Source: Cloacibacillus sp. An23 (GTDB lineage Bacteria > Synergistota > Synergistia > Synergistales > Synergistaceae). Taken from it: a DNA stretch of 64,000 nucleotides. Under the pieces are notes generated by a model. The model had not been told where the DNA came from. It made no database searches and was given only the letters and a program-made list of their open reading frames with translations. This document shows positions 16,671-24,673 of the stretch, in pieces. The position numbers and the translations under genes were made by a program. Position 1 is the first letter of the stretch, and each line of letters starts with the position of its first letter. The stretch is taken from contig NZ_NFJQ01000001.1 of NCBI RefSeq assembly GCF_002159945.1, forward strand, positions 186,001 through 250,000. Reading direction: 5' to 3'.

Positions 16671-17939
16671 ATGTCGCACAACCACACTCACGGCTCGCCC
16701 TATACGCGGCTTATCGAAAGACTGAACCGCTTCCCGCAGGGCGCGCCCGAATCAAAACGTTTATACGACATATTAAAAATACTCATGACGGAGAAAGAGG
16801 CCGGGCTTATGGCCCAGCTTCCTATAAAGCCGTTCAACGTGCGCAAGGCCGCTCAAATGTGGCAGATGCCCGAGCACGAAGCCCAGAAGATGCTCGACGA
16901 CCTCGCGGGGAAGGCGCTCATCGTCGATATAGAGCAGGAGGGCGAGCAGATGTACGCGGTGCCGCCGCCTATGGCCGGCTTTTTCGAGTTCTCGCTCATG
17001 CGCGTGCGCCACGACATAGACCAGAAGACGCTGAGCGAGCTTTTTTACCAGTACATCACGGTAGAAGAAGACTTCATGCGCGACCTCGTATGCGGCGGCG
17101 ACATACAGATGGGACGCATCTTCGCGCAGGAGCCGCAGATTCCGGACGAATATCTTCTGCAGGTGCTCGACTATGAACGCGCGACGAACGTCATAGACAC
17201 GGCCACGCATATCGGCGTAAGTATGTGCTACTGCCGCCACAAGGCTATGCACGAAGGACACGCCTGCGACGCGCCGATGGATATCTGCATGACCTTCAAC
17301 ACGACGGCGTACACGTTAATCAAATACGGGCACGCGCGCGAGATCGACGCCGCGGAGTGCCGCGACCTTCTCGCGCAGGCGTACGACTACAACCTCGTCC
17401 AGTTCGGCGAAAACGTGCGCCGGCGCGTCAATTTCATCTGCAACTGCTGCTCGTGCTGCTGCGAAGCGATGCTTGCGATAAAGCGATTCGGCGTCGCGCA
17501 GACGATATGCTCGAACTTCCTGTCTAAGGCGAACGCGGAAAAATGCGTAGGGTGCGGCAAGTGCATGAAGATATGCCCGGTAAACGCTATAGAGATGACG
17601 GAAGAGAACGGACGCAGAAAAGCCCGCGTCGTCCCTGAGCGCTGCATAGGATGCGGAGTCTGCGTCAAGAACTGCCAGACGCACGCGCTGATGCTGGAGC
17701 CGCGGCCGAACAGGCTGATAACGCCGCTCGACACGACGCACAAGGCGGTCGCGATGGCTACGGAGCGCGGCAAGCTGCAGGATCTGATATTCGACAACAA
17801 GGTTCTCTTCAGCCACCGCCTTCTCGCAGGCGTCCTCGGCGCGATACTGAAACTCCCAGGCCTCCAGCGTTCTTTCGCTCAGGCCCAGCTCAAATCAAGA
17901 TACCTGGAAAAGCTGATAAGCAAAGCCGCGGGGGAATAA
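16671..17939 (+). CDS. 2x[4Fe-4S] ferredoxin-domain protein with N-terminal winged-helix-like region
   Basis: 422 residues, with GGGAGGAG 8 bases before the ATG. Residues about 50-105 resemble a winged-helix fold (VRKAAQMWQMPEHEAQKMLD). A middle region has Cys/His clusters (MCYCRHKAMHEGHAC, CNCCSCCCE). Two classical ferredoxin motifs then follow, CVGCGKCMKICP and CIGCGVCVKNCQ, for two [4Fe-4S] clusters. The last 60 residues are hydrophobic-basic. Similar proteins are known in anaerobic deltaproteobacteria and Synergistota as 4Fe-4S-binding proteins of unknown role. Stands alone. Confidence 0.8.
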   Translation: MSHNHTHGSPYTRLIERLNRFPQGAPESKRLYDILKILMTEKEAGLMAQLPIKPFNVRKAAQMWQMPEHEAQKMLDDLAGKALIVDIEQEGEQMYAVPPPMAGFFEFSLMRVRHDIDQKTLSELFYQYITVEEDFMRDLVCGGDIQMGRIFAQEPQIPDEYLLQVLDYERATNVIDTATHIGVSMCYCRHKAMHEGHACDAPMDICMTFNTTAYTLIKYGHAREIDAAECRDLLAQAYDYNLVQFGENVRRRVNFICNCCSCCCEAMLAIKRFGVAQTICSNFLSKANAEKCVGCGKCMKICPVNAIEMTEENGRRKARVVPERCIGCGVCVKNCQTHALMLEPRPNRLITPLDTTHKAVAMATERGKLQDLIFDNKVLFSHRLLAGVLGAILKLPGLQRSFAQAQLKSRYLEKLISKAAGE

Positions 17940-18214: not shown

Positions 18215-18928
18215 TTAGATGCTTTCAAAATCGGTTCCGTCGTAAGCCTCCACCGCGGGCCAGAAATCTTCTCCGTAACGCTCCGCCAGCATTGAGCGGA
18301 CTTTCCCGACAACTTCGCCGGCGCGTTCCGGCGCGACTTGCCCCAGAACGCGGCCGAACATCTGATATATGTCGGCGCAGTGGTAGGCCATCTCCCGCTT
18401 GACGCGCTCCCCCGGCTTGAGACGCTTCGCGTAAGTCTCCATGAAATCCTCTTTTATCTCGGGGCTGCTGAAATAAAAGTCGCACGACGAGTTCAGGTGC
18501 ATATTCTGCGCGCATAAGAAGCCGAGTGACGGGTTGAATCCTCTTAAGATAGACCCGTCGATCTCACGGCAGTAATCCACACCGCACTCAGCGCACCCCA
18601 TCGCGCGGAACTCCCGCGCCCACCAACAGTCCGTCTGACGTTCGTGAACGACGCCGGGCGCAGCCTCATACGTTCCGCAGTCGGTCAGCCCTTCGTCGTC
18701 GCAGAGCAGTTCGCCGTACGCGAAGTAAGACGTTACGTCGAGCGGATTTCCGTCGCGCAAGGCCCTCATCGCCATCCTGCGCCCACGCCTCGCCCCGTAC
18801 GCGCGCGATGCGGTCATGAAAATGTCGAGGCCGCGCTCCTTGCCGAAGCACTCGGCAAGCGTCTTATAAAAAGCCGCGACGATTCCGCCGTGGTGGGTCT
18901 CAGTCAACGACGTCTTCAGCTTCGGCAT
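18215..18928 (-). CDS. L-2-amino-thiazoline-4-carboxylic acid hydrolase family protein
   Basis: 237 residues from the ATG at 18928 (GAGGTGCAGG upstream); the frame has an ATG 15 bases earlier and a TTG at 18909. The family signature region is residues about 35-75: GARRGRRMAMRALRDGNPLD followed by TSYFAYGE. The named family member opens the thiazoline ring of ATC to N-carbamoyl-cysteine. The fold also occurs in other hydrolases, so the substrate is uncertain. A further block carries CAECGVDYCREID and LGFLCAQN, with many Cys. The C-terminal 80 residues (after about 155) are an extra helical part. Last gene of the MarR-linked operon, overlapping the small membrane gene by 29 bases. Confidence 0.72.
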   Translation of the reverse strand: MPKLKTSLTETHHGGIVAAFYKTLAECFGKERGLDIFMTASRAYGARRGRRMAMRALRDGNPLDVTSYFAYGELLCDDEGLTDCGTYEAAPGVVHERQTDCWWAREFRAMGCAECGVDYCREIDGSILRGFNPSLGFLCAQNMHLNSSCDFYFSSPEIKEDFMETYAKRLKPGERVKREMAYHCADIYQMFGRVLGQVAPERAGEVVGKVRSMLAERYGEDFWPAVEAYDGTDFESI

Positions 18929-19148
18929 CGTCCTGCACCTCAAGATTCGGGAACGCGAGAATCAAAACAAGCGCCGCCGTCGCGATAAGGCTGACTGTGA
19001 AAAGCGCGGCGCTTCCGCCCATCATATAGCGTATACAAATGCCGTAGGCAAGGAAGAAATTTGCTGCGCACAGCAGCAGAGTCAGCACGCAGCGCATACG
19101 AAGCGGCCCGACGCTGGATTCCAGAAAGCGCGATATAGTTTTTGCCAT
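18900..19148 (-). CDS. small two-helix membrane protein
   Basis: 82 residues starting at the ATG in TAATG, overlapping the transporter's stop. Two hydrophobic helices (about residues 20-40 and 45-65) and an acidic tail (DDAEAEDVVD). Not recognised. Strict coupling to the NRAMP-like transporter suggests an accessory subunit. Confidence 0.6.
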   Translation of the reverse strand: MAKTISRFLESSVGPLRMRCVLTLLLCAANFFLAYGICIRYMMGGSAALFTVSLIATAALVLILAFPNLEVQDDAEAEDVVD

Positions 19149-20461
19149 TACGCCCACACTCCCAATTTAGTAAGAACAAAGATAACGAAGGTGAGGTTGA
19201 GAACGATGACGCTCACCAGTATACCGAGGTTATAGAGATAATTGCGCACTACGTTCCGGCCGAGGAACTTACGGTCGTTGGCAAGAAGGAACCACGAAGA
19301 ACCGCTGACCCAAGAGAAGCATGACTGAAGCCCGGCGACTAGGATGACCGCCCACATCGGCTTTCCTATATAAGCGCCGAGAAAACCGATCTGAGTGCTT
19401 ATTATACCGAACTTCCAAAGCGCCGAGTTCGGATCGAGCGGTTTGCCGAATGCGCGGCAGAGAGATTGGGCGGCGATAGTGCTCATACCTATCATGGTGG
19501 ACACCGTGATGGCCAGCACGCCTATATAAAAACCGATCTGTATCGCAAGGCTCGGTATCGCGCCGACCAGAGCGTGCGCCAGCTCGTAAGTGTCGGTCGG
19601 GAAAGTGCCGCCGCTGAAAGTAACCGCAAAAGCGATGCCTACGAATGTAAGCACCAAGGTGACGGGAACGAGCCCTCCGAAGACGAGGTCGAAATGGGCG
19701 AGCTTCTCATGCACCGGAGTAAAGCGCCGCTGCTTCATGGCGTAATGATACTGGCACCAGTCGCCGACCGCGACTACGGATATGAGGGCGGCGACGCCGG
19801 TGGTGACGCCTTCGACTCCGCTCGGCAGCGTCGGTACGAGCAGCCCGTGGAACAAAGCGCCCCAATCTACGCCGGTCACGAATATTACGGCGACGAAGAC
19901 AAGCATCATGACGACGACGAGGAATTTGCTGAAATTCTCAACAAAGCGCACCGCCTTGTCGTTTTTGCCGTACATCCATGCAAACGGGAAAGACATAAGA
20001 AAAATAATGACCCAGTTCACTGAGCGCGGACAGCTTATCCCGACAAGCGCGAACATATTCTCCAGCGCGTCGGTGCCGAGCGCGTACTGCGCGAATGTAA
20101 AAGTTACGTATCCCAGATAACAGGCTATGAGCCCGGTGACCACGGAGCCTACCAGTTTGGTCTGATACTTGTTCTGCGCCGTGATGACGTCCAGCTTGCT
20201 GTGGACGGCGAATTTGCTGCCCAAAGAAAACATGAACATTCCAAGCAAATAAGAATAAAACGGTATCCACAGCATTTTGTATCCGTAAGCTGCGCCCATG
20301 GCCGCGACCGAGGCGAACGATCCGGCTCCGAGCGTTGTAACCGCTTCCATAAACGCCGGCCCAGTGTACTTGCTGTAGCCCAGCCAGCGCTTGAGGACAG
20401 GCGCGTCGTTAAGCCGCTTTAGGTCCTCAACTTCCCTGAGATATTCTTCCCTATCATTCAT
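19148..20461 (-). CDS. NRAMP-fold transporter lacking the metal-binding motifs
   Basis: 437 residues and about 11 membrane helices. The first helix region (GPAFMEAVTTLGAGSFASV) aligns with NRAMP GP...DPGN, followed by MGAAYGYKMLW as in AGAxxGYxLLW. The metal-ligand DPGN is replaced by GAGS. In helix 6 the MPH motif is absent and the region reads VAVGDWCQYHYAMKQR. The overall hydropathy and remaining NRAMP-like helices support the fold. Loss of both metal motifs predicts a non-metal substrate, plausibly the organic compound processed by the flanking enzymes. Operon position: after the [2Fe-2S] gene (21-base gap), before the small membrane gene. Confidence 0.7.
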   Translation of the reverse strand: MNDREEYLREVEDLKRLNDAPVLKRWLGYSKYTGPAFMEAVTTLGAGSFASVAAMGAAYGYKMLWIPFYSYLLGMFMFSLGSKFAVHSKLDVITAQNKYQTKLVGSVVTGLIACYLGYVTFTFAQYALGTDALENMFALVGISCPRSVNWVIIFLMSFPFAWMYGKNDKAVRFVENFSKFLVVVMMLVFVAVIFVTGVDWGALFHGLLVPTLPSGVEGVTTGVAALISVVAVGDWCQYHYAMKQRRFTPVHEKLAHFDLVFGGLVPVTLVLTFVGIAFAVTFSGGTFPTDTYELAHALVGAIPSLAIQIGFYIGVLAITVSTMIGMSTIAAQSLCRAFGKPLDPNSALWKFGIISTQIGFLGAYIGKPMWAVILVAGLQSCFSWVSGSSWFLLANDRKFLGRNVVRNYLYNLGILVSVIVLNLTFVIFVLTKLGVWA

Positions 20462-20482
20462 ATCTCTTCACTCCTTTGAAAA

Positions 20483-20794
20483 TCAACCTTCGCAGATTAA
20501 ATCGCGGACGACATTCCGACCGTATGGCTCTATAGTCACCTCATCGGCATCCACCCTTTCCTTACAGGCGAGCTTCACCGCCCCGTCCACCTTGACCATG
20601 CACTTGCCGCACGCAGCCTGACGGCACGCGGCGTGCGAAAAAAACGCCAGCGTATGATCCTGGTTTTCATATATATCTTCAAGAATGTTCATAACTGAGA
20701 CGGCGGCGCCGTCGTCCACATCGACGGTATATCTGCACATGCGTCCGCTGCCCGTTTCCGCGCCGCGCAGGATGTTTACAACTATCTTCCTCAT
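20483..20794 (-). CDS. stand-alone [2Fe-2S] protein like the N-terminal domain of SdhB/FrdB/TfrB
   Basis: 103 residues. Cysteines are arranged as ACRQAACGKCM with a fourth in KLACKE, the same spacing as the plant-type [2Fe-2S] site of succinate dehydrogenase/fumarate reductase iron-sulfur subunits. The C-terminal domain that carries [4Fe-4S] and [3Fe-4S] clusters is absent, so it is less than half the usual length. It starts 16 bases after the flavoprotein stop, and the two most likely form a soluble electron-transfer pair. Confidence 0.8.
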   Translation of the reverse strand: MRKIVVNILRGAETGSGRMCRYTVDVDDGAAVSVMNILEDIYENQDHTLAFFSHAACRQAACGKCMVKVDGAVKLACKERVDADEVTIEPYGRNVVRDLICEG

Positions 20795-20810
20795 AGGCCC
20801 TCCTCCTATT

Positions 20811-22568
20811 TCAGCTAAGCTTCCCGATGACCTCTTCCACGTAGGCTATGTAATCTTTACGCACCGGCTCGGGATGGATTTCTGTGTGTACAGGCTCGGC
20901 CCATTCGGTATTGAGCGCCGCGTCCTTTATCACAAGGTTCTTGAGATATCTTTCATTGTCGGTGTACGGATAGTCCTCCCTGAAATGCACTCCGCGGCTC
21001 TCCTTCCGCATATACGCCGCTTTAACTGTGGCCGCGGCGGTAAGCAGGCCGTTGCGCAGCTGCAGGTACTCAATCCATTCCTTGTTGTATCTGCGGTCCT
21101 TCGTGGAAAGGGACACGCTGCCGAGCCCGGCCCGCAGCGACGATATTTCGCCCAGCGCATCCTCGAGGACGTCTCCGCGGCGAATGACCGAAAGTGCGCG
21201 CGCCGTTACTTCGTGCATGGATTTTCTAAGCTCGACGGGGCTCGTCCCGCCCTCGGCGCCGAACGGCCTGAGCAGCTCTTCCTCAATATCCTTGAGGAGC
21301 GTACCGGCGGCCTGCGGCGCGGCGCAGTCTTTCGCGTACGACGCGGCAGAAGCGCCGGCGATGCCGCCTTCTATCAGCATCTCCGTAGTCGCGGCCGATA
21401 CGCGGTTCGCGCCGAACATGCCGCCGGTGCATTCCCCGGCGGCGAACAAGCCTGGGATTTTAGTGCGCATCTCGTCGTCTACTCGTATGCCGCCCTCGAA
21501 GTAGTGGGCGAACGGCGCGCATGTCACGCAGCCGCCTTCACGGAAAATTTTCATAATATCGCCGTATATGCCTTTGGAAAGGCTCGGCAGATCGTTGTAC
21601 AGCTCTTCTTCAAGCTCGCGCGGAGAGAGGTCTATGACATAATAGACGCCGCCGAAACGATTGCGGCCGCGCGAATCGATCTCACGCTGAATCGCGTACG
21701 AAAGCAGCATTTTATTCCATTCAGAATCAAGCGCTAGCGTTTCGACGTCGGGCGAAAGATAACGGTGGGTGAATGTCTTGCCGAATTTATTGACGAAAGA
21801 GCCATATCCTATCGTGTTCGTGATATAAGGCAGGATATTGCCGCGGTACATTTCCGGCGCGAGTATGACGGCGGGGCAGTAGGATATCATCTCCATGTCC
21901 ACAAGCTCCGCGCCGGCGCGCAGAGCTGCGGCCGGGCCTTCTCCGCAGCAGTCGGTAGGGCCGCTCGTATTTCTAAAAATGCCGTGGCTTCCGCCGGTCG
22001 CTATAATAACGGCCTTAGCCGGTATATAGTATATTTCGCCGGAGAGGACGTCGGCGCACACGCACCCTGCGACACGCCCGTCTTCTACGGCCACGTCCGT
22101 GAAAAGACGGTTCTCCGCCCACTCTATCCCCAGTTCCCTGACGCGCCGGAACAACGCGTCGAGAATCGCGGAGCCAAAGACGGATATGCCGCGCTCTCCC
22201 TCGGTGCCCAGCACCTCCATGCCCCAATCCATAAGCTCCTTTATGCGATCAGGCGCGCCGTCTACGAATTTACGGATAAGTTTCTGATTCCCGAGATAAA
22301 ATCCTTCGTGGCACACATCGGCAAAGAATTTATCTTTCGTGTCGTCTTTGTTCCGTTCGCTCAGCCCCATCTTGCAGAGGCTGCCGCCGTCGCAGGCGAT
22401 GTCAGCGCTCAGATTGGCGCCGGCAAGCAGCGTAGATCCGCTGCGATTGATCTTGCCCTTCGCTATGATAAGCGTTTTTGCGCCGCTTTCTGCGGCGCTG
22501 ACGGCGGCGCGCAGCCCTCCGCCGCCGCTGCCGATTACGATCACGTCATATGGAGCGCATCGTTCCAA
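20811..22568 (-). CDS. FAD-dependent fumarate-reductase/succinate-dehydrogenase-type flavoprotein
   Basis: 585 residues from the TTG at 22568 (GGGGG seven bases upstream). The open frame reaches a TTG at 22628, but that lies inside the operator. FAD-binding VIGSGGGGLRAA opens the protein. The covalent-flavin His of SdhA is not there (NRSGSTLLAGAN), so FAD is probably non-covalent. Substrate-site His (AHYFEGGI) and Arg (GANRVSA) of the superfamily are kept. The segment that carries the proton-donor Arg in fumarate reductases (TEGCRGEGG) reads TNTIGYGSF, so the substrate is unlikely to be fumarate. C-terminal SRGVHFREDYP is typical. First gene of the operon. Confidence 0.83.
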   Translation of the reverse strand: MERCAPYDVIVIGSGGGGLRAAVSAAESGAKTLIIAKGKINRSGSTLLAGANLSADIACDGGSLCKMGLSERNKDDTKDKFFADVCHEGFYLGNQKLIRKFVDGAPDRIKELMDWGMEVLGTEGERGISVFGSAILDALFRRVRELGIEWAENRLFTDVAVEDGRVAGCVCADVLSGEIYYIPAKAVIIATGGSHGIFRNTSGPTDCCGEGPAAALRAGAELVDMEMISYCPAVILAPEMYRGNILPYITNTIGYGSFVNKFGKTFTHRYLSPDVETLALDSEWNKMLLSYAIQREIDSRGRNRFGGVYYVIDLSPRELEEELYNDLPSLSKGIYGDIMKIFREGGCVTCAPFAHYFEGGIRVDDEMRTKIPGLFAAGECTGGMFGANRVSAATTEMLIEGGIAGASAASYAKDCAAPQAAGTLLKDIEEELLRPFGAEGGTSPVELRKSMHEVTARALSVIRRGDVLEDALGEISSLRAGLGSVSLSTKDRRYNKEWIEYLQLRNGLLTAAATVKAAYMRKESRGVHFREDYPYTDNERYLKNLVIKDAALNTEWAEPVHTEIHPEPVRKDYIAYVEEVIGKLS

Positions 22569-22613
22569 TTTTTTTCCCCCGTTCTTATAAAAACGGTCAA
22601 AACAGCCGCTTTT

Positions 22614-22664
22614 TATTTTTGTTTCCAACGAAACAAAAATACTATTCTCTCCGCTTCACGTCAA
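22614..22664 (-). promoter_or_regulatory. promoter with perfect 12-bp inverted-repeat operator of the flavoprotein operon
   Basis: Minus-strand -35 TTGACG (22659-22664) and -10 TATTTT (22636-22641), spacing 17. The -10 is the outer part of a perfect inverted repeat: arms 22614-22625 (TATTTTTGTTTC) and 22630-22641 (GAAACAAAAATA), spacer CAAC. It covers the -10 and the predicted transcription start. The MarR gene ends 60 bases upstream, so the encoded MarR protein is the obvious binder. Confidence 0.75.
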
Positions 22665-22700
22665 GGGGAAAATTCAACTTTTATAAAAAACAGATTGTAT

Positions 22701-23186
22701 TTATATTTCAGAGGAAACAGCGGATTCCAGGCGGCGGGCGCAAAGGTCTTCCATGTAATCCGCGTATCTGGTGAGGACGTCAAGAACTATTTCTTTGGAA
22801 CTTTTTGGAAGGGATTCAAAATATGAATAGAATTCGCGGCCGACTGTATTGTGGAAATCGTTGTGGGCGTAAAAAACATCCATCCCGGATTTCGTCGCTT
22901 TATAATATACTTCCTTGCGGTTGAGCCCGTCTCTGTAACATTCTATAAGCCCGCGCTTTACGAAGCCCCTTGTCATTTTTGAGATGGTGCCCTTGGGAAT
23001 GCCTGTCACGCCGGCGAGTTTAGTTGTGTTTATCCCCGGATGGCAGATGATTTTTTCCAAAGTGTGCATTTCGCGCGGCAGCAGACGCATCCCTGGAAGA
23101 TATTCGCGGTGTATCCTGTTGTCCATATTTGTATAGCTGCATATACGAAGCACGGCTTCGTCAAATTTTAAGCGGCTGTCCGACAC
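22701..23186 (-). CDS. MarR-family transcriptional regulator
   Basis: 161 residues from a GTG at 23186 with AGAGGG 8-9 bases upstream; a longer frame to 23348 has a low-complexity, non-family N-terminus. The winged helix is visible: REMHTLEKIICHPGINTTKL, GIPKGTISKMTRGFVKRGLI (recognition helix) and RKEVYYKATKSG (wing). It lies directly upstream of, and on the same strand as, the flavoprotein operon, separated by the operator-bearing promoter. A ligand-released repressor of the operon is the likely role. Confidence 0.82.
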   Translation of the reverse strand: MSDSRLKFDEAVLRICSYTNMDNRIHREYLPGMRLLPREMHTLEKIICHPGINTTKLAGVTGIPKGTISKMTRGFVKRGLIECYRDGLNRKEVYYKATKSGMDVFYAHNDFHNTVGREFYSYFESLPKSSKEIVLDVLTRYADYMEDLCARRLESAVSSEI

Positions 23187-23527: not shown

Positions 23528-24673
23528 TTATACTTCCGGACGAATCCTCTTGTAGAACACAGCCGAGCCGTCTTTGGCTTCGAGCATGTAACCGTCTTTG
23601 TTCTTCGGGTTGTGGAACTCGTCCATCGTGAGCTTCGTGTGCATGAGCTGGAGGTCCTTCGTCTGCTCGAGGGCGTCGCGGACCTTCTGCGGGTCGGTGC
23701 TTCCGGCGCGCGTGATAGCGTCGGCGAGCCAGTAGACGGAGTCGTAGGCCATGACGGCGTTCATGAATTCCTGGCACTCCGTCCCGGTCTGCTTCTTATA
23801 TTTGTCGAAGAAGTCTTTCAGCGCCGGGTCTTCCTTCGCGACGTGGCTGACCCAGAAGGTGTTCTTCATGGCTTCCGCTCCGGCGATCTCCCAGAAGTAG
23901 TCGCCGTAGCCGTCGCCGCCGATGATCGGGGCGGTGATGCCGAGCTCGCGGGCCTGCTTGACCGAGAGAGGCGTGCATTTGCCCATCGTCGGGAGGACTA
24001 CGACGTCGGGATTGGATTCCTTTATCTTCGTGAGCTGCGCTCGGAAGTCGACGTCTTCGCCGCGGTGCCCTTCGTCGGCTACGACCTTGCCGCCCTGAGC
24101 CTCGAAGCTCTTAATGAAAAATTCGCGGAGCCCGTGCGAGTAGTCGCTCGACACGTCGTAGAGGATGCCGGCGGTCTTGGCTTTCAGGTCCTGCGCCGCG
24201 AAGGTCGCGAGGATCGCTCCCTGATAGGGGTCGAGGAAGCATATACGGAAGTTGTATGGGCGTACCTTGCCTTTTTCGTCTATCGTAACCTGCGGGTTGG
24301 TCGGCAGAGTGCCTATGTGGGCGACTTTGCCGCTGTTGAAGACCGGAGCGGCGGCTATGCAGAGGCCGGAGCCGCTGGGCCCGATGGCGGCGACTACCTT
24401 GTCCTGCTGGACGAGGCGGCGCGCGGCGTTGACCATGTCTTCATTTCTAGTGCGGCAGTCGTACATGACGACCTCGAGCGGCTTGCCGAGGACGCCGCCC
24501 TTGGCGTTGATTTCTTCGACCGCCATTTTGACGGATTCTACTTCGGCGACGCCGTAAGCGGCGAAGTCGCCCGTGACGGTGGCTATTTCACCAATTTTGA
24601 TCGTGTCGGCGGCAAAAGCGGGGAGAGCAAACAACATTACCAGTAACGCGCTGAAACTAATGAACTTACGCAC
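23528..24673 (-). CDS. branched-chain amino-acid-type ABC substrate-binding protein (LivK family)
   Basis: 381 residues with a signal peptide (cleaved after LPAFA). The mature start DTIKIGEIATVTGDFAAYG and the segments MYDCRTRNEDMVNAARRLV and AAIGPSGSG are type I periplasmic-binding folds of the leucine/isoleucine/valine group. It is an orphan: no LivHMGF genes are adjacent and terminators isolate it, so it must share a transporter encoded elsewhere or serve as a sensor. An extended -10 (TGCTATAAT, minus strand, at 24727-24735) lies about 55 bases upstream. Confidence 0.88.
   Translation of the reverse strand: MRKFISFSALLVMLFALPAFAADTIKIGEIATVTGDFAAYGVAEVESVKMAVEEINAKGGVLGKPLEVVMYDCRTRNEDMVNAARRLVQQDKVVAAIGPSGSGLCIAAAPVFNSGKVAHIGTLPTNPQVTIDEKGKVRPYNFRICFLDPYQGAILATFAAQDLKAKTAGILYDVSSDYSHGLREFFIKSFEAQGGKVVADEGHRGEDVDFRAQLTKIKESNPDVVVLPTMGKCTPLSVKQARELGITAPIIGGDGYGDYFWEIAGAEAMKNTFWVSHVAKEDPALKDFFDKYKKQTGTECQEFMNAVMAYDSVYWLADAITRAGSTDPQKVRDALEQTKDLQLMHTKLTMDEFHNPKNKDGYMLEAKDGSAVFYKRIRPEV

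Follow-up and report, generated by a model that had tools for sequence, protein, structure and literature searches.

What compound does an anaerobic bacterium take apart with a flavoprotein, a free [2Fe-2S] protein and a relative of aminothiazoline-carboxylate (ATC) hydrolase that are encoded together behind a single regulated promoter? The question is raised by an operon of Cloacibacillus sp. An23 (Synergistota), an anaerobe, in a stretch of 64,000 nucleotides (nt) that we call the window and whose positions are used as coordinates throughout. Six genes on the minus strand encode a MarR regulator, a flavin adenine dinucleotide (FAD) flavoprotein, a free [2Fe-2S] protein, an NRAMP-fold carrier, a small protein with two transmembrane (TM) helices, and an ATC_hydrolase-family protein. 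This is a real, conserved and regulated catabolic module. Each part is of a kind already known, and the whole is undescribed within the reach of our searches. We propose, at roughly even odds, that it may serve as a substrate-induced operon for the anaerobic catabolism of cyclic cysteine derivatives (thiazolidine- or thiazoline-4-carboxylates), because its relatives repeatedly adjoin a cysteine-breaking enzyme. The features are as follows.

22701..23186, minus strand: MarR-family regulator, first gene on the strand (PF01047, 31.7 bits, cut-off 24.6; 64% identity to positions 313-795 of contig L005)
22636..22664, minus strand: predicted sigma-70-like promoter, TTGACG-17-TATTTT (sequence reading)
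22614..22641, no strand: predicted operator palindrome TATTTTTGTTTCGTTGGAAACAAAAATA, 12-bp arms, 4-nt spacer, over the -10 element (same core at other clusters)
20811..22568, minus strand: FAD flavoprotein of the fumarate reductase/succinate dehydrogenase superfamily, TTG start at 22568 (PF00890 and PF02910, alignments)
20483..20794, minus strand: stand-alone plant-type [2Fe-2S] protein (Fer2), 103 residues (PF13085, 62.5 bits; four Cys invariant in 5 clusters)
19148..20461, minus strand: NRAMP-fold (LeuT-fold) carrier lacking the metal ligands (PF01566, 72.9 bits; AlphaFold2 model)
18900..19148, minus strand: small two-helix membrane protein, conserved, probable carrier partner (two hydrophobic stretches; kept in L005 and L022)
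18215..18928, minus strand: ATC_hydrolase-family (PF14196) protein with three invariant Cys (53.8 bits; AlphaFold2 model)

An earlier note on this DNA, made from the sequence alone, had given the genes, their order, gaps and overlaps, and these agree to the base with the list of open reading frames: 16 nt separate the flavoprotein and Fer2 genes and 21 nt the Fer2 and NRAMP-like genes, the ATG of the two-helix gene sits within the TAATG that ends the NRAMP-like gene, and the ATC_hydrolase gene overlaps the two-helix gene by 29 nt. A Pfam profile scan assigned families to every protein of the operon except the small two-helix protein, which had no match in it. The same note had called the combination one it did not know, and our literature search likewise found no report that combines ATC hydrolase, a fumarate reductase-type flavoprotein and NRAMP.

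The core trio and its relatives

Approximately 60 ATC_hydrolase loci from Synergistota and Oscillospirales were read, most of them without a flavoprotein. The flavoprotein, Fer2 and ATC genes form a stable core at 15 loci, and this trio stays where the carrier is exchanged (NRAMP-like, Opp-type ATP-binding cassette (ABC) or MFS_2), so that of the strict five-gene system described earlier the conserved order stands and the unit does not. The trio is found with Opp-type ABC genes and two nitroreductases (L194, L195), with Opp-type ABC genes and the L-cysteine desulfidase CyuA (L198), without a recognised carrier (L183, L208), and in a Synergistaceae genome (L268) in the order M20 amidohydrolase, nitroreductase, flavoprotein, Fer2, ATC. 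The longest statement of the theme is L269, where PorC, ferredoxin, PorA, PorB, the alpha and beta subunits of ADP-forming acetyl-CoA synthetase, flavoprotein, Fer2, ATC (PF14196, 72 bits), MFS_2, M20 and CyuA follow in one run; this independent operon appears to encode a route from cysteine to acetate through CyuA, pyruvate:ferredoxin oxidoreductase and the synthetase. On a maximum-likelihood tree of 38 ATC proteins the label "trio" has to change 4 times, with at least 3 of these changes forced by well-supported branches, and therefore the pairing of ATC protein and flavoprotein arose, or survived, on separate branches.

CyuA lies within 8 kb of 7 of the 15 trio loci, against 1/36 ATC-only loci (p=3.7e-4) and 0/12 loci with flavoprotein and Fer2 lacking ATC (p=0.008); the enrichment persists when kin are collapsed (p=0.001), and since contig ends truncate the surroundings of several negative loci, the trio count is conservative. 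M20 is associated with CyuA (p=0.0015) and not significantly with the flavoprotein (p=0.18). The clustered CyuAs match the solved L-cysteine desulfidase (PDB 9fsl, E 1.6e-31), and in the alignment all eight clustered copies keep Cys23, Glu25 and the three [4Fe-4S] cluster Cys; Cys23 and Glu25 are essential in the desulfidase and absent from serine dehydratases (PMC12647591). Cysteine output is thus the step that comparative genomics appears to support best, and the heterocyclic or carbamoylated amino-acid-like compound of the earlier note can be refined: M20 and CyuA recur beside the relatives, so the product would be L-cysteine. One further locus (L201:1-9651) carries a Liv-type ABC binding protein, an apparent permease and ATPase, ATC, CyuA and M20 with no flavoprotein, and looks like a direct ATC-to-cysteine cluster.

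The operon itself is found again, together with its control site, in gut-type anaerobes of two phyla, some related and some not; conserved co-occurrence, a test set beforehand, was thus found in several genomes. Among 41 close genomes the full carrier match is confined to the own genome, and in a congener (G001) the first 21 residues of the carrier stand at the end of a contig (L023) that holds the flavoprotein and Fer2 genes in the window's order, behind the same binding-protein gene, before being cut. A contig of an Oscillospiraceae metagenome-assembled genome (MAG), L005, has all six genes in window order and then an EamA gene, with identities of 85% (carrier), 73% (flavoprotein), 67% (ATC and small protein alike) and 64% (MarR); the scan of genome contigs gave this match and otherwise weak ones only, and a tblastn search of plasmids with the carrier gave none. 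A second family of the same order (G047, L022) has MarR, flavoprotein, Fer2, NRAMP, small protein and ATC, and then a CyuA-family gene. At L082:6793-11083 the transporter-ATC pair takes another form, in which a short ATC, an NRAMP-like carrier and a small membrane protein are encoded beside a sigma-54 activator and no flavoprotein is present.

The own genome also holds, on contig 3 (L025), a diverged sister cluster of nine genes (MarR, ATC, flavoprotein, Fer2, NRAMP, SDR, M20, nitroreductase, CyuA), which is repeated gene for gene, with a similar operator, in three Oscillospirales genomes (L081, L083, L182). Eight of its genes are 51-87% identical between the own genome and Oscillospirales and CyuA 33-37%; in the congener the orthologous CyuA and both flanks are present on contig 41 (L267) and the eight-gene cluster of about 8 kb is absent, with some 96 nt between the flanks. 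Because CyuA has diverged beyond the other eight genes and stands without the cluster in the congener, it seems to have been joined to the sister cluster more than once.

Promoter and predicted MarR operator

The promoter with a MarR operator named in the earlier note is recovered as a prediction: TTGACG-17-TATTTT and a 12+12 palindrome at 22614-22641 lie behind the MarR gene and before the flavoprotein gene. The 28-nt palindrome, TATTTTTGTTTC-GTTG-GAAACAAAAATA, sits between these two genes and overlies the -10 element of the operon promoter with the core TTTGTTTC-N4-GAAACAAA. In the window the perfect core occurs once (0 mismatches), and when up to two mismatches are allowed there are 3 matches, where 0.51 would be expected. 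The core TTGTTT-N6-AAACAA or close variants lie at or just behind the -10 element in the window, L005, L023 and the sister clusters (L025, L081, L083, L182); L198 has a related palindrome in front, and L022 three half-similar copies around the locus. Across the own genome, with at most one mismatch, the core is found at both clusters and at three other places, none of them before a plausible target, and a reversed control pattern gave a similar number of matches. MarR control of the operon, as proposed earlier, thus draws support from comparative genomics, through a predicted operator core common to other clusters, and because this core is common to the window cluster and the sister cluster, both are likely to respond to identical or similar signals. 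MarR would repress from the palindrome on the -10 element until a pathway compound binds it. The upstream-most TTG of the flavoprotein gene (22628) lies within the operator, and therefore the TTG at 22568, preceded by GGGGG and giving a protein of 586 residues, is the likelier start; flavoprotein residue numbers below are counted from the far TTG.

Redox pair, ATC_hydrolase-family protein and carrier

The flavoprotein matches FAD_binding_2 (153.9 bits) and Succ_DH_flav_C (88.7 bits) and remains far below every cut-off for succinate dehydrogenase (SDH), fumarate reductase (FRD) and L-aspartate oxidase (NadB; TIGR00551, 164.6 against 452.75 bits). Like the flavoproteins of these enzymes it has one carboxylate-binding His/Arg pair, His375 and Arg409 in the alignment. 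As the earlier note had read it, the proton-donor Arg segment is not kept: the FrdA stretch TEG.RG has become TNTIGYG, and QFHPTG has become SYCPAV. The His that binds FAD covalently is absent as well, the aligned stretch being NRSGSTLL. The partner is of the FrdB N-domain type and, also as described before, lacks its second domain; it has 103 residues and a Fer2_3 match (62.5 bits) with four Cys. Unlike SDH and FRD, the system thus has no proton-donor Arg, covalent-FAD His, second Fe-S domain or membrane anchor, and neither an anchor gene nor a quinone-coupling second Fe-S domain was found within the operon among its open reading frames and Pfam matches. A stand-alone [2Fe-2S] protein without quinone-coupling parts suggests that electrons are handed to a soluble carrier. 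Pairs of flavoprotein and stand-alone Fer2 lacking ATC are common in Bacillota (L270-L281), with M20 near L273, L271 and L270 and apparent tripartite ATP-independent periplasmic (TRAP) transporter and electron-transfer flavoprotein (ETF) genes near L271; the pairs appear to form a wider family of soluble two-subunit flavoenzymes with no substrate assigned.

The last enzyme belongs, as had been stated, to the ATC_hydrolase family (53.8 bits against a curated cut-off of 28.1). Its C100, C119 and C148 do not vary among 39 sequences, and ATC hydrolase, described as a C-S bond cleaver, has three Cys in common with V4R domains (PMC5847659). The AlphaFold2 model (predicted local distance difference test, pLDDT, 93.8) agrees with that published tie, its best structural matches being the sensor domains of DmpR, PoxR and MopR and TRAPP Bet3 (Z up to 7.4); the best Foldseek E value is 0.09, and the likeness to V4R, MopR and TRAPP may stem from no more than a common arrangement. 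The protein probably has a zinc site. ATC_hydrolase would then be a broad, three-Cys, V4R-like family whose name alone is no proof of thiazoline hydrolysis. The only outcome of a PDB sequence search with the ATC profile was a weak match to annexin (E 0.002) that covered 43 residues at the C terminus, and we rejected it as chance.

For the carrier, Pfam (72.9 bits against a cut-off of 29.8) and the AlphaFold2 model (pLDDT 85.6, predicted TM-score (pTM) 0.86; nearest PDB Nramps at TMq 0.71-0.79) bear out the NRAMP fold with replaced metal motifs. In the alignment G45-A46-G47-S48 stands in the place of the DPGN motif and A231 in that of the TM6 Met, so that the ligands Asp, Asn and Met have become Gly45, Ser48 and Ala231; scores are below the NCBIfam cut-offs (TIGR01197, 42.1 against 272.5; NF037982, 34.1 against 50). 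Carriers of this kind without metal ligands have a precedent: C. glutamicum depends on the NRAMP-family protein PxpT both to take up 5-oxoproline and to grow on it (PMC13274462), and therefore the carrier fares well as a non-metal NRAMP and not as a novelty, a cyclic-amino-acid carrier of the family having already been described. The likeness to PxpT/YcsG with PxpABC (an NRAMP-fold carrier whose DPGN is replaced, next to a catabolic enzyme that opens a ring or, here, would do so) has its limits: the window motif is GAGS instead of GPGT, no Pxp genes adjoin, the enzymes differ and there is a small two-helix protein, probably a partner of the carrier. Among the 20 best Bacillota matches, with genes read within the fetched stretch, PxpC (5-oxoprolinase) and DUF1445 (YcsI) genes accompany all nine GPGT carriers (L143-L146, L149, L151, L155, L156, L158) and 0/5 DPGN proteins; the window carrier is about 18-22% identical to the PxpC-linked ones. 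Since GPGT carriers adjoin PxpC and PxpT serves 5-oxoproline use, transport of ring-shaped amino acids by the window carrier would be a reasonable analogy. A GPGT NRAMP-like gene at L086:226-12135, read by eye, stands apparently amid FdrA-, DUF1116- and carbamate-kinase-like genes, which suggests another organic substrate in this branch.

A candidate route and its alternatives

The proposed catabolism of cyclic cysteine derivatives would start from cysteine-aldehyde adducts or from ATC, the cyanide product. The carrier and its two-helix partner would import the proline-like ring acid, in the manner of PxpT; the flavoprotein, holding the carboxylate by Arg409 and His375, would dehydrogenate the ring C-N bond and pass electrons by way of the free [2Fe-2S] protein to a soluble carrier; the ATC_hydrolase-family protein would open the thiazoline to N- or S-acylated cysteine; an amidohydrolase (the M20 clustered in relatives) would release cysteine; and CyuA, whose linkage is observed, would convert it to pyruvate, NH3 and H2S for fermentation. 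At L269 pyruvate would go on to acetyl-CoA and to acetate with ATP. The ring nature of the substrate is suggested by the ATC family name and the carrier precedent, and the redox direction by the missing proton donor and the downstream logic; the earlier idea of redox chemistry plus hydrolysis behind a non-metal NRAMP carrier appears to hold. Two analogues are known. Pseudomonas turns ATC via carbamoyl-cysteine into cysteine and pyruvate with ATC racemase, L-ATC hydrolase, carbamoyl-cysteine amidohydrolase and cysteine desulfhydrase (PMC10821248); the relatives resemble this, at family level, in clustering the ATC_hydrolase family, an amidohydrolase and a cysteine-degrading enzyme and in going from cysteine to pyruvate, H2S and NH3, whereas the FAD/[2Fe-2S] pair, the Fe-S enzyme CyuA as desulfurase, the NRAMP-fold carrier and MarR control are peculiar to the present system. 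Bacteria also oxidise thiazolidine-4-carboxylate to N-formylcysteine by proline dehydrogenase (PMC9814826, its references 23-25), likewise a flavin dehydrogenation of a cysteine-derived ring followed by opening; here the system would be dedicated, clustered and inducible, with an unrelated flavoprotein family and a separate hydrolase.

Several findings weigh against this proposal. No CyuA or M20 adjoins the window operon, unlike its relatives, and CyuA is encoded elsewhere in the own genome, the sister cluster included; CyuA-like genes are not rare (the own genome has three, G047 four), so one isolated case of adjacency might be accidental (about 2% given four copies). The ATC_hydrolase family occurs in many contexts without flavoprotein or CyuA, L005 as a MAG contig is possibly misbinned, and the PxpT homologue YcsG of B. 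subtilis has been claimed as a Mn importer (PMC10448178). Finally, Glu replaces the active-site His of the flavoprotein in the sister clusters, and for this reason the substrates of window and sister clusters may differ. The strongest form of the proposal, to which we give somewhat less than an even chance, is that thiazolidine-4-carboxylates are opened oxidatively by two enzymes, a soluble dehydrogenase with FAD and [2Fe-2S] and a V4R-like hydrolase with three Cys, and that the cysteine then yields acetate and ATP by way of CyuA and pyruvate:ferredoxin oxidoreductase; this would be a widespread and so far undescribed anaerobic pathway. If true, a conserved flavoprotein/[2Fe-2S]/ATC module so far annotated by family only would gain a function, a source of cysteine-derived H2S in anaerobes would be identified, evidence would grow for an NRAMP-fold branch carrying ring-shaped organic acids, and aldehyde or cyanide scavenging, H2S formation and energy gain would be joined in gut-type anaerobes; experimenters would have a defined operator and a handful of substrates to try.

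The main rival, which we consider unlikely, is an open-chain S-substituted cysteine such as S-(2-succino)cysteine, cleaved anaerobically: the flavoprotein would dehydrogenate the succinyl arm, the ATC protein hydrolyse the C-S bond of the vinyl thioether, M20 remove the N-acyl group, and cysteine go to CyuA. It, too, accounts for CyuA, M20 and an SDH-superfamily flavoprotein, and C-S cleavage is what has been described for ATC hydrolase (PMC5847659); however, the flavoprotein retains only the carboxylate site of His375/Arg409, the second-half His and Arg of SDH/FRD being gone, that His is Glu in the sister clusters, and the carrier precedent concerns ring acids. No more probable is a non-cysteine heterocycle or carbamoyl amino acid (a hydantoin, lactam or similar), with CyuA incidental or acting on another beta-substituted amino acid. 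The 5-oxoprolinase genes beside NRAMP relatives, the apparent FdrA-type carbamoyl-transfer genes of L086 and the several trio loci without CyuA would fit it, but CyuA is enriched only where flavoprotein and ATC stand together, and it seems to have been joined repeatedly and keeps its cysteine-specific residues. A slightly poorer chance is given to the same compounds with the redox direction reversed, the flavoprotein and [2Fe-2S] protein being a terminal reductase with thiazole or thiazoline as acceptor (Stickland-like) and the ATC protein acting on the native oxidised ring; fumarate and urocanate reductases belong to the superfamily, but the missing proton-donor Arg segment argues against reduction, as does an operon without quinone-coupling Fe-S domain or anchor. 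Metal homeostasis, with Mn or Fe imported for the neighbouring enzymes as the NRAMP fold and the YcsG report might suggest, is very improbable and was set aside, since every metal-ligand position is replaced, the partner genes are catabolic and relatives swap the carrier for Opp-type ABC or MFS_2. Breakdown of ergothioneine (no hydratase or ergothionase genes) and of 3-hydroxy-4-pyridone was set aside too, both leaving CyuA unexplained.

Two neighbours of the operon may be added. Immediately upstream, on the operon's strand, is a gene for a LivK-like ABC binding protein (23528-24673); no permease genes directly adjoin it, and it precedes the operon genes in the congener (L023) too. On the other side, convergent with the operon, the plus strand encodes a protein with a C-terminal 4Fe-4S ferredoxin domain (16671-17939).

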